Part shown: in pieces, positions 25,601 through 29,139 of the stretch
Layout of the letters: every line of letters starts with the position of its first letter
How positions within the stretch are numbered: position 1 is the stretch's first letter
NCBI GenBank assembly: GCA_009377605.1
Contig: WHTT01000030.1
Span: 1 to 64,000 of the forward strand
From: Luteitalea sp.
Lineage (GTDB): Bacteria; Acidobacteriota; Vicinamibacteria; Vicinamibacterales; Vicinamibacteraceae
DNA length: 64,000 nt
Direction: 5' to 3'
Made by a program: the position numbers and the translations under genes
Notes under the pieces: generated by a model
The model's input: only the letters and a program-made list of their open reading frames with translations
What the model was told of the DNA's origin: nothing
Database searches by the model: none

Positions 25601-25750
25601 TTCGACTCACCTGACGGCTTGCCATGAGCGAGCGTCAGACGAGTCGAATGGGAAACAGGAATCGGATTTCTGCCTGTGCTATCGTTTTGTCGGACGGCGA
25701 GCCGCCGATCACCAACATCCTGCAAGCAACTCGACCCTAAGCTTTTGAAA

Positions 25751-26530
25751 ATGGGGAAGATCATCGCGATCTCGAACCAAAAGGGCGGTGTGGGCAAGAC
25801 CACAACGGCGATCAATCTTGGTGCATCGCTGGCCAGTGCCGGCCATGATGTGCTCGCTGTCGATATCGACCCGCAGGGAAATCTCACCAGCGGCGTCGGA
25901 CAGAAGCAGCATGACGGCCGCACCATCTACGAAGCGCTGATGGGAGCTGGTGCCGACGGCGAGATACCCCTCCCCATCCTTGACACGCCGATCGAACGGC
26001 TGAAGGTAGTTCCTGCCGATCGCGACCTCTCAGGTGCGGAGGTAGAGCTCGTCACTCAAGCGAACCGCGAGGGGCGCTTGCGGCAGGTGCTGGAACCGCT
26101 CCGGGATCGCTTCTCCTACTTGCTCGTCGATACGCCGCCTTCCCTCGGCCTGCTCACGCTCAATGCGCTCGTCGCCGCCGACACGGTGCTCATCCCATTG
26201 CACTGCGAATACTTTGCGCTGGAGGGACTCGCAGATCTCCTAACCACGCTCAAGCGCGTACGCTCGGCCCTCAACCCGCGATTGGACGTCGAAGGCGTGC
26301 TGTTGACGATGTACGGCGACCGAACCAACCTCGGTCAACAGGTTGCCCGCGAGATTCGGGGGTTCTTCGACAACAAGGTCTTTGACACCGTGATCCCACG
26401 AAACATCCGTCTGGCCGAGGCGCCGAGCCACGGTATGCCGGCCGTCCTGTACGATGCCAAATCCCGCGGCGCTGAAGCCTACACAACCCTTGCACGTGAG
26501 CTCCTGTCGCGGAATGGTCCAAGGGCATGA
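25751..26530 (+). CDS. parA: Chromosome partitioning ATPase ParA (Soj)
   Basis: Nucleoid-bound ATPase that with ParB and parS moves the origin region. The product is 259 residues starting MGKIIAISNQKGGVGKTTTA, with the deviant Walker A KGGVGKTT (11-18). DIDPQGN follows as Walker A', and VDTPPSLGLLTLNAL is Walker B. VIPRNIRLAEAPSHGMP is the conserved C-terminal Soj block. The frame is open upstream to 25676, but the start at 25751 is the family start. parB follows after 42 bp. Confidence 0.97.
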   Translation: MGKIIAISNQKGGVGKTTTAINLGASLASAGHDVLAVDIDPQGNLTSGVGQKQHDGRTIYEALMGAGADGEIPLPILDTPIERLKVVPADRDLSGAEVELVTQANREGRLRQVLEPLRDRFSYLLVDTPPSLGLLTLNALVAADTVLIPLHCEYFALEGLADLLTTLKRVRSALNPRLDVEGVLLTMYGDRTNLGQQVAREIRGFFDNKVFDTVIPRNIRLAEAPSHGMPAVLYDAKSRGAEAYTTLARELLSRNGPRA

Positions 26531-26572
26531 CGTGACTATGTTGATAGACCTAACTTGTGAGGAGTGAAGCAG

Positions 26573-27535
26573 ATGGCAGCGGAAAAGCGCTCCGCCTTGG
26601 GGCGCGGCTTGAGCGCGCTCATTCCCGACAGGCAGCCCCCCGCGATTGCTCCTTCCACGCAGCCGGCTACCGAGCCTCCTGGTGGAGGGAGCTCCCAAGC
26701 GGAGGGGCCAGGGGCTGTTGCTTCTCACGAGCTCCGGGAGGGGCGGCAGAACATCGGCCAAGCGCTCGAGGTCGACCTCGATCTCTTGGATCCCAACCCT
26801 CTCCAGCCTCGCGCGCACTTCGACGATAGGCGACTCGACGAGCTTGCCCGCTCCCTGCGTGCCAGCGGGGTCATCCAACCGCTGGTCACCCGGCGCCGCG
26901 GGGAGCGCTATCAGATCATTGCCGGCGAGCGCCGCTGGCGAGCCGCGCAGCGCGCCGGCTTGCTGAAGGTGCCGGTGGTCCTTCGAGACGTCCCCGACGA
27001 GAAGCTGCTCGAGGTCGCGCTCATCGAAAACCTCCAGCGGGAAGACCTGAACGCGATAGACGAAGCGCTCGCCTACAGGCGCCTCGTCGAGGAGTTTCAT
27101 CTCACCCAGGAACAAATTGCGGATGCCGTCGGCAAGGATCGCGCCTCGATTGCCAATCACCTCCGACTCCTGAAGCTGCCGGCAGAGGTGCGCCAGCTCG
27201 TCGCGGGCGCGGCGCTCTCGATGGGCCACGCTCGTGCCATCGTTGGCCTCGACGATCACGCGCGCATGAAGACAGCCGCGCGCGAGGCGCTTGATCGTCA
27301 TCTCTCGGTGCGCGAGACCGAAGCGCTCGTGCGTCGTCTCCTGACGCCGGCCAAGCCCACACGCACCGAGCCGTCGACCGATGTGCACACACGCCACGCC
27401 GAGGAGCGCATGCGCCTCGCGCTCGGCACACGCGTCCGTATCGTCCGCGCGGGGAAAGGGGGACGTATCGAAATCGACTTCATCTCCGAAGAGGAGCTCA
27501 ATCGAATCTACGAGCGCATTACAGAACCGAGCTGA
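26573..27535 (+). CDS. parB: Chromosome partitioning protein ParB (Spo0J)
   Basis: CTP-dependent DNA clamp loaded at parS. The product is 320 residues. The N-terminus RSALGRGLSALIPD is the ParA-stimulating peptide. Residues about 70-170 are the CTP-binding ParB/Srx domain, with NPLQPRAHFDD, GVIQPLVTRR and the CTP motif GERRWRAAQ. The helix-turn-helix includes LTQEQIADAVGKDRASIANHLRLL, and the C-terminal dimer domain is short. The ATG at 26573 is chosen because TGAGGAG lies about 10 bp upstream; a GTG at 26564 has no room for it. selD begins one base after the parB stop. Confidence 0.97.
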   Translation: MAAEKRSALGRGLSALIPDRQPPAIAPSTQPATEPPGGGSSQAEGPGAVASHELREGRQNIGQALEVDLDLLDPNPLQPRAHFDDRRLDELARSLRASGVIQPLVTRRRGERYQIIAGERRWRAAQRAGLLKVPVVLRDVPDEKLLEVALIENLQREDLNAIDEALAYRRLVEEFHLTQEQIADAVGKDRASIANHLRLLKLPAEVRQLVAGAALSMGHARAIVGLDDHARMKTAAREALDRHLSVRETEALVRRLLTPAKPTRTEPSTDVHTRHAEERMRLALGTRVRIVRAGKGGRIEIDFISEEELNRIYERITEPS

Positions 27536-27536
27536 A

Positions 27537-28586
27537 ATGTTCAAGAAGAAACGCCGACTCACCGATTACGCCGCCTGCGCCGGTTGAGCGAGCAAGCTCG
27601 CTGCCGGCGAGCTCGCTCACGTGCTGAGCGACTGGCCCGTGGAAGCCTCTGACCGGGTTCTGGTTGACTTCAGGACCGCGGACGATGCGGGTGTGTACCA
27701 AATCGGGGCAGCCGAGGCGCTGGTTCAAACCGTTGATTTTTTCACGCCAATTGTTGACGACCCCCGTCTTTACGGCCAGATCGCGGCAGCCAACGCCGTG
27801 AGCGACGTCTATGCGATGGGCGGGCGTCCTCTCACGGCGCTTGCTATTGCCGCCTTCCCAGCGAACGACTTCGACGCGAGCGTCGTGCGCGCGATCTTCC
27901 ACGGCGGCCTGGAGAAGCTTGTCGAGGCGGGAGTGGCCCTCCTCGGTGGCCACACTGTCCAGGACCACGAAGTGAAGTTCGGCTATGCGGTCACCGGTAT
28001 GGTCGATCCCGGGCAAATCTGGGCGAATGCCGGGGCCCGGCCCGGCGACGTCCTCTTGCTGACGAAACCTCTCGGAACCGGTGTGATCACCACGGCTGCA
28101 AAGTTTCAGCGTGCGCCAGCCGATGTGCTCGAGGCGGCTGTCGTCTCGATGGCGACGCTCAACCGCGCTGCGGCGGAGGCACTCGCAGGTGCGCCGGAGC
28201 GTAGCGTTGGGGCGTGCACGGACGTCACCGGATACGGTTTGCTCGGGCATGCATCGGAGATGGCGATTGCGAGCAGAGTGACGATCGCGATCGACGCGAG
28301 CGCGGTGCCACTGCTGGCGGGTGTCCGCGCTTTGGTCGCGCGCAACCTCACCGGCGGCGGTAAGACGAACGAGGCCTATTTCGGGTCAGGCGTCGACGTG
28401 CCGCGCGACATGGAGCCGGCGCTGCTCGCCTTGCTGTACGACCCGCAGACCTCGGGCGGCCTGCTGGCGTCCGTGTCGAGCGCCGAGGAACAGACCGTTC
28501 TGGGGCGGTTGCACCGTGCCGGGGTGCCTGCCGTCCGCGTCGGGCTCGTCGAGCCACAGGGCGAGTGGAAGGTCCGGCTTCTCTGA
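27537..28586 (+). CDS. selD: Selenide, water dikinase (selenophosphate synthetase) with selenocysteine at residue 17
   Basis: SelD makes selenophosphate from selenide and ATP for selenocysteine and selenouridine synthesis. The reading frame starts ATG at 27537, immediately after parB, and continues through an in-frame TGA at 27585-27587. Decoding TGA as Sec gives CAGUASKL, with Sec17 and Lys20 exactly where E. coli SelD has Cys17 and Lys20. The full length of 349 residues is normal. Further motifs are DDAGVYQIG, VDFFTPIVDDP, AAANAVSDVYAMGG, GGHTVQD, DVTGYGLLGHASEM and DPQTSGGLL. A strong hairpin begins at the TGA. A gene caller starting at 27621 would lose both catalytic residues. It is well supported from sequence, though Sec insertion is unproven. 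Confidence 0.93.
27585..27619 (+). promoter_or_regulatory. Candidate bacterial SECIS hairpin of selD
   Basis: The UGA opens a stem: TGAGCGA (27585-27591) pairs with TCGCTCA (27613-27619). A GCAA bulge precedes an upper stem GCTCGC/GCGAGC (596-601 with 607-612, all +27000) and a UGCCG loop. The alternative is a 9-bp perfect outer stem. A stem-loop starting at or just after UGA is what SelB needs in bacteria. Confidence 0.75.
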
Positions 28587-28622: not shown

Positions 28623-28713
28623 ACTACGTTTCGGCGTGCCGTCTGAGGCGCGCCTGATCCGGCCTTTCCATGCCCGGCAGGTTCGTGGGCTGGGTTTCTC
28701 CGGAGGCAATTGC

Positions 28714-29139
28714 GTGTCGCTGGACCTGTCGGTCCTGTGGGTCATCCTCTCGGTTCTCGTGCTAGCAGCCGCGTTGCAGCACTTCTTGTTCAAGCCTCTG
28801 ACCCGCGTGATGCGCGCGCGTGAAGAAGCGGTGGCGTCGGCGCGCGCCTTGGCCGCACGTGCCGCGGCTGAAGCGCGACGGGCCACGGAAGAGTACGAAG
28901 CCAAGACCGCCGCTGCACGCGCGAGTCTCTACCGGGAAATGGACGAGGTCCGCCGCAACGCGCTCGAGAAGCGATCGACCCTTGTTGCCGAAACGCGCCG
29001 CGAGGTCGAGCAAGAACGAGCGCGGGCTGCTGAAGAGCTGCGCACATCTGCTGAAGCGGCGCGGGCCCGCCTGGCTGCTGAGGCACACGAGCTCGGTCTT
29101 GCCGTCGCAAGCCGCCTGCTCGACCGCCAAGCTTCCTAA
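28714..29139 (+). CDS. F-type ATP synthase subunit b (first b-type gene, b')
   Basis: Peripheral-stalk subunit linking F1 to Fo. The 141-residue product starts at a GTG with CGGAGGC 6 bp upstream. One N-terminal TM (VLWVILSVLVLAAALQHFLF, about 7-26) is followed by PLTRVMRAREEAV and a long charged Ala/Glu/Arg-rich helix, typical of b/b' subunits. The frame is open upstream but that part is a shadow of selD. It is the first gene of b'-b-delta-alpha-gamma-beta-epsilon. The a and c subunit genes are not in the window. Confidence 0.9.
   Translation: MSLDLSVLWVILSVLVLAAALQHFLFKPLTRVMRAREEAVASARALAARAAAEARRATEEYEAKTAAARASLYREMDEVRRNALEKRSTLVAETRREVEQERARAAEELRTSAEAARARLAAEAHELGLAVASRLLDRQAS

Follow-up and report, generated by a model that had tools for sequence, protein, structure and literature searches.

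The selD locus of Luteitalea sp. raises the question of how a gene for selenide, water dikinase could yield an active enzyme when a stop codon stands at its catalytic position, and which RNA element would direct the reading of this codon as selenocysteine (Sec). Sec-containing SelD is the second most widespread family of prokaryotic selenoproteins (PMC13188914), in a reference set from 2015 Sec is encoded by 19% of SelD genes (PMC4561486), and changes from Sec to Cys in SelD have been documented (PMC1794560). We analyzed the locus in a stretch of 64,000 nucleotides, herewith referred to as the window, together with its genome and the corresponding loci of relatives (for coordinates see Table 1).

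Table 1. Features of the selD region, in window coordinates
Feature	Coordinates	Strand	Evidence
parA	25676..26530	+	Matches ParA-type ATPase models (at most 101.7 bits, under the equivalog cut-offs); orthologue adjoins parB in relatives
parB	26564..27535	+	TIGR00180, 188.6 bits
selD, selenide, water dikinase, 349 aa with Sec17	27537..28586	+	TIGR00476, 351 bits; alignment; AIRS and AIRS_C domains
TGA codon 17, probably read as Sec; UxxK motif with Lys20	27585..27587	+	Same TGA in relatives
Alternative stem from the UGA, 27585-27591 with 27613-27619 (positions 1-7 with 29-35); may compete with H2	27585..27619	+	Drawn fold
H1, hairpin GCUCGCU-GCC-GGCGAGC between UGA and H2, proposed spacer	27596..27612	+	Pairs kept in clade; synonymous null
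H2, putative distal SECIS hairpin GCUCA-CGUGC-UGAGC, positions 31-45	27615..27629	+	Pair counts; synonymous null; compensatory changes
Short ORF of standard gene calling, 321 aa; GTG start within putative SECIS loop	27621..28586	+	Standard ORF rules
Downstream atp operon, first gene (ATP synthase b/b'-type subunit); start approximate	28711..29139	+	Profile match

A probable Sec codon in selD

The frame that opens at ATG 27537, only 1 nt behind the stop codon of parB, meets an in-frame TGA at codon 17 and then stays open up to the TGA at 28584-28586; with the internal TGA read as U, the product begins with MFKKKRRLTDYAACAGUASKL. The match to the selD equivalog model TIGR00476 covers residues 7-316, counts as full-length and lies far above the cut-off of 125 bits, both AIRS-type domains were found, and the protein aligns lengthwise with the structurally characterized SelD of E. 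coli and Aquifex (PDB 3u0o and 2yye) and with 16 relatives. The SelD fold is not in doubt. In the alignment with 3u0o the UGA falls on the catalytic Cys17 of E. coli SelD, and Lys20 as well as the motifs DD, DFF, SDxxAMGG and TDVTG, including the ATP-binding motifs of AIRS, are intact. As a test of general reassignment of the codon, the ends of the neighboring genes are informative: TGA is not reassigned genome-wide, because parB and selD itself terminate in TGA. The first-pass annotation had described SelD as a selenoprotein masked by an in-frame UGA, with Sec17 and Lys20 in place of Cys17 and Lys20 of E. coli, and had pointed out that standard gene calling shifts the start to GTG 27621; frame and alignment bear this out, the short ORF indeed lacks both Sec17 and Lys20, and the selenoprotein assignment itself is strongly supported by the machinery found in the genome and by conservation of the TGA in relatives. 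In fold, motifs, Sec at the Cys17 position, UxxK and genomic Sec machinery, the gene agrees with known Sec-containing SelD or SPS2 (TIGR00476, COG0709), without essential difference except for its parAB-atp context. Its motif CAGUASK carries Cys14, whereas GCGCK of E. coli has a second Cys at 19 instead.

Sec machinery and selenium utilization in the genome

All three components of Sec decoding that were sought are present in the genome of the window (6.79 Mb, 382 contigs), that is, selA (528.7 bits), selB (333.7 bits; its product has two of the winged-helix Pfam domains typical of SelB) and tRNA-Sec with the anticodon TCA (64.7 bits). A lack of selB or tRNA-Sec, which the first-pass annotation had named as refuting its claim, is thereby excluded. 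In addition to selD, the genome carries at least one selenoprotein gene, a Prx-like gene of the AhpC/TSA family (G000 contig C11:52777-53328; L203:978-1529), which starts at GTG behind an SD-like GGAGG and encodes a UxxC motif with an in-frame TGA (HRHLGULPC, in the context HRHLGULPCRRHLLQLQQ); this TGA is common to 25 relatives in the order. Neither the selenouridine synthase gene ybbB nor the selenium-cofactor marker yqeB was found in the genome, so that, among the uses tested, selenophosphate should serve Sec synthesis. SelD would then make the selenophosphate for Sec-tRNA synthesis, and in this way supply its own Sec17 as well as one or more other selenoproteins, the Prx-like protein among them.

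Searches for formate dehydrogenase-like, SelW-like and AhpD/CMD-like candidates gave matches, with no TGA within the match. One-TGA ORFs next to selB (L195; VWA and FAD-binding domains) were rejected as selenoproteins, because the TGA lies behind or before the domain. Elsewhere in the order, several distinct Prx-like genes per genome contain a single in-frame TGA, in many cases at the active site (WUPYC, WUPNC), and four or more TGA-containing Prx-like matches were seen in some genomes (the loci are L234, L235, L237, L241, L242, L246-L248, L251 and L253).

Conservation of the in-frame TGA

Most of the strong SelD matches in 396 genomes of the phylum contain one TGA. A set of 170 SelD loci was extracted, 128 with TGA and 42 with TGC or TGT at codon 17, a ratio that is not a frequency because Cys loci were deliberately sought. 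The TGA at the catalytic Cys position is shared by the 127 other sampled TGA loci and by 22 further loci of the order. Among 149 genomes of the order, it is present in 75 of the 86 listed SelD matches, while the remaining listed matches comprise six Cys forms, all from one genus, and others that lack the N-terminus, represent a divergent second copy or sit within a long open frame. Within the order the Sec form of SelD is the usual one, and the UGA of selD almost certainly codes for Sec. The nearest named records, found with an alignment as query, are Acidobacteria MAGs with 62% and 59% identity. Although a 2006 survey credited Acidobacteria with selenoproteins, only 4 were listed (PMC1794560); the present order emerges as Sec-using and may be selenoprotein-rich. 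The novelty that the first-pass annotation saw in a clean case of Sec-SelD does not hold, since such genes are the rule in the order and the family is so widespread among prokaryotes (PMC13188914).

The distal hairpin H2 as the candidate SECIS

The bacterial SECIS consensus places the apical loop 16-37 nt from the UGA, with a minimum free energy (MFE) of -7.5 kcal/mol or below (PMC13188914, Fig. 2). Numbering from U of the UGA (27585 = 1), H2 pairs positions 31-35 with 41-45 and exposes G37-U38 (27621-27622) in its loop. In the window the distance from UGA to this loop is 32 nt and positions 29-48 give -9.3 kcal/mol, both within the consensus. H2 resembles the consensus element and E. coli fdhF in its small apical loop, with G and then U among the first positions, in the location of this loop 16-37 nt past the UGA and in its stable stem (the fdhF counterpart of G37-U38 is G23-U24 in the numbering of PMC8659212). 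It differs from both in that the loop, 32-33 nt past the UGA, is close to the upper limit of the range, and H1 lies in between. The window's H2 has 5 bp, the loop CGUGC and a C.C mismatch at the top, while in many relatives it has 6 bp and the loop GUN.

All five pairs of H2 can form in 67 of the 128 sampled Sec-SelD loci and in none of the 42 Cys-SelD loci. The 66 Sec-SelD genes with both a complete H2 and G37 are herewith called D-type; as this type is defined by the pairing, counts within the 66-67 genes refer to a selected set. For the region 29-48, D-type genes reach a mean of -10.2 kcal/mol against -2.8 kcal/mol in a synonymous-codon null, and Cys genes show no excess. Two sets were chosen independently of pairing, 29 Sec genes of the window's class-level clade and 22 further genes of the order, and in every member of both (29/29 and 22/22) the pairs 32-44, 33-43, 34-42 and 35-41 are intact.

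In the pair 33-43, position 33 is the free wobble base of an Ala codon, and its change is matched at the opening base of codon 31. The pair is UA in 22, CG in 3, GC in 3 and UG in 1 of the 29 clade genes, and UA in 13, CG in 7 and UG in 2 of the 22 order genes. Within the selected D-type set, the Ala codon and the codon opposite go together as GCU with Ser AGC (39/40), GCC with Gly (5/5), GCG with Arg (15/15) and GCA with Cys (2/2), and the two columns change jointly in 7 of 7 independent pairs on a tree built from the rest of the protein. Among all Sec genes joint change of columns 33 and 43 occurred in about 6 cases against 0.4, and no such link was found in Cys genes. From this pattern of compensation, H2 is most likely the element that SelB reads.

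The stem beginning at the UGA

The first-pass annotation had drawn the stem-loop at the UGA itself. In this reading the SECIS would be one long stem beginning at the UGA, with H1 as its inner part and the pairing of H2 incidental, and UGAGCGA and UCGCUCA can indeed pair, both in the window and in the majority of clade members. The pairing is partly automatic, however, because five of its positions are fixed by the UGA plus an Ala codon, and it is not kept: wobble position 33 is other than U in 6 of the 29 and 7 of the 22 clade members, so that the pair A3-U33 is broken in 13 of 51 clade Sec-SelD genes, whereas position 43 keeps H2 paired every time. Furthermore, decoding of the UGA requires unwinding of the lower E. 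coli SECIS (PMC4513850). The fold energy around the UGA stem stays within that of dinucleotide shuffles (z -1.35). This unremarkable energy, and a single-sequence minimum-energy structure that mixes H1 with other pairings, also count against the reading with H1 and H2. We consider the UGA stem improbable as the SECIS; it is not supported as the functional element, and the covariation disfavours it and favours instead the hairpin at positions 31-45.

The sequence UGAGCG is found twice, once at the Sec codon and once in the 3' arm of H2. Each copy can pair with CGCUCA, so that two mutually exclusive folds exist. A switch between them is conceivable, but not all relatives keep the UGA stem. The UGAGCG/CGCUCA repeats lie at 27585-27591, 27613-27619 and 27624-27630 of the window.

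The proximal hairpin H1 and a possible tandem arrangement

Where H2 is used, H1 is nearly always present at about positions 12-28. Its pairs 14-26, 15-25, 16-24 and 17-23 are intact in all members of the two clade sets (29/29 and 22/22), the last being C-G in 23 and G-C in 6 of the 29 clade members. For the region 10-30, 41% of the D-type genes have a fold energy below the synonymous null at p<=0.05 (5% expected), although this type was selected by the pairing of H2; H1 also overlaps the conserved peptide KLAAGEL. H1 sits in the place of a proximal SECIS, mostly without a GG loop. As the element read by SelB it was rejected, because its loop, which reads GCN in the clade and CCA or CCC elsewhere, mostly lacks a GG or GU motif and, at 15 nt past the UGA, lies just outside the 16-37 nt range.

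H1 may instead act as a spacer that, by folding between the UGA and H2, would keep the GU loop within reach of SelB. A folded element just outside the mRNA tunnel is plausible, because the lower E. coli SECIS is reported to unwind in the tunnel (PMC4513850). In the Prx-like selenoprotein gene, which is unrelated to selD, a short hairpin (10-13 with 17-20) likewise precedes a conserved SECIS-like hairpin with an AGUU loop at 22-39; the pair 12-18 of the short hairpin is C-G in 14, U-A in 5 and broken in 7 of 26 genes.

Taken together, the frame, the conserved UGA, the Sec machinery and the covarying hairpins can be read directly from the sequences, and on this basis we propose with high confidence that selD encodes a functional selenophosphate synthetase with Sec at the equivalent of Cys17, in which SelB would read H2, with GU in its loop, to recode the UGA, and H1 would fold in between so as to bring the loop to a workable distance. 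Sec insertion into SelD and activity of the enzyme are predicted accordingly.

Among the Sec-SelD genes without H2, a GG or GU loop stands 13-16 nt closer to the UGA, at about 21-23 in 23 genes and at 24-26 in 27 genes; by the rules used, 12 Sec-SelD genes were left unassigned. On a quick tree with noisy register calls we counted at least 18 changes of register and at least 12 changes between Sec and Cys. These observations raise, as a tentative proposal that we hold at somewhat less than an even chance, a tandem-hairpin class of SECIS, in which H1 is folded out and the GU-loop hairpin H2 lies 7-14 nt farther than in E. coli, together with repeated moves of selD among three registers with the loop at about 21, 24 and 37. 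In a partial literature search, no description of a tandem-hairpin bacterial SECIS or of SECIS relocation in selD was found. The registers of selD suggest one possible reason why the distance from UGA to loop in the bacterial SECIS model is as wide as 16-37 nt, and the Sec and Cys forms of one gene should give a clean natural test for the position of the recoding signal. Sec-SelD itself is an already known kind of gene, found throughout the order, and the interesting part of the locus is this SECIS variant, the assignment of the SECIS having moved from the UGA stem to H2.

The apparent GTG start within the hairpin loop

If H2 is the SECIS, the GTG 27621 miscalled as a start falls inside the SECIS loop. 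The window, as well as those relatives that use GTG for Val at this codon, could thus in principle produce two forms, one from partial decoding of the UGA as Sec and a second, shorter isoform begun at the GTG. We regard this as very unlikely, because many relatives have GTC, GTT or GTA there and the start codon is not conserved. Still less credible is a broken gene, or one begun at GTG 27621, that makes a SelD without the catalytic residue: standard ORF rules yield exactly this start, but dozens of genomes keep the codons upstream in frame, through the TGA and past it, the GTG belongs to the loop of an RNA hairpin that is itself conserved, the genome has the Sec machinery, and the ATG of selD directly follows the parB stop codon. 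An error of sequencing or assembly in place of TGC or TGT, which the first-pass annotation had named as a further refutation of its claim, is refuted by comparison and has a negligible chance, because the identical TGA is found in a genome of the same genus (G421, SelD 78% identical in protein sequence) and in dozens of relatives across the order. The Sec-SelD reading thus corrects a gene that standard ORF rules cut to an apparently dead enzyme in a whole bacterial order, but in our view the SECIS result matters more than this correction.

Neighborhood and Cys forms of selD

In almost every member of the order that was fetched, including those with Cys-SelD, selD is immediately preceded by parA and parB, and in most of them ATP synthase genes follow downstream. 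The place between parB and the atp operon, also put forward at first as a novelty, adds none, since parA-parB-selD-atp is the ordinary arrangement in the order. The Cys-SelD proteins of genus g11 in the same order (L041, L043 and L044) are 55-58% identical to that of the window and share its parAB-selD neighborhood, but codon 17 is TGC or TGT, the hairpin H2 is gone and the peptide AQVLS is not kept. This genus also has TGA-containing Prx-like genes (L251 and L253), and Sec decoding thus seems to have been kept after its SelD became, or stayed, a Cys enzyme.

Some genomes of the order depart from this pattern (loci and genomes L069, L070, L091, G277, G419, G183 and G494). They have a divergent second type of Sec-SelD, with no parAB seen in the flanks that were fetched, or two copies of SelD, or a SelD inside open frames of about 1200 codons, suggesting fusions.
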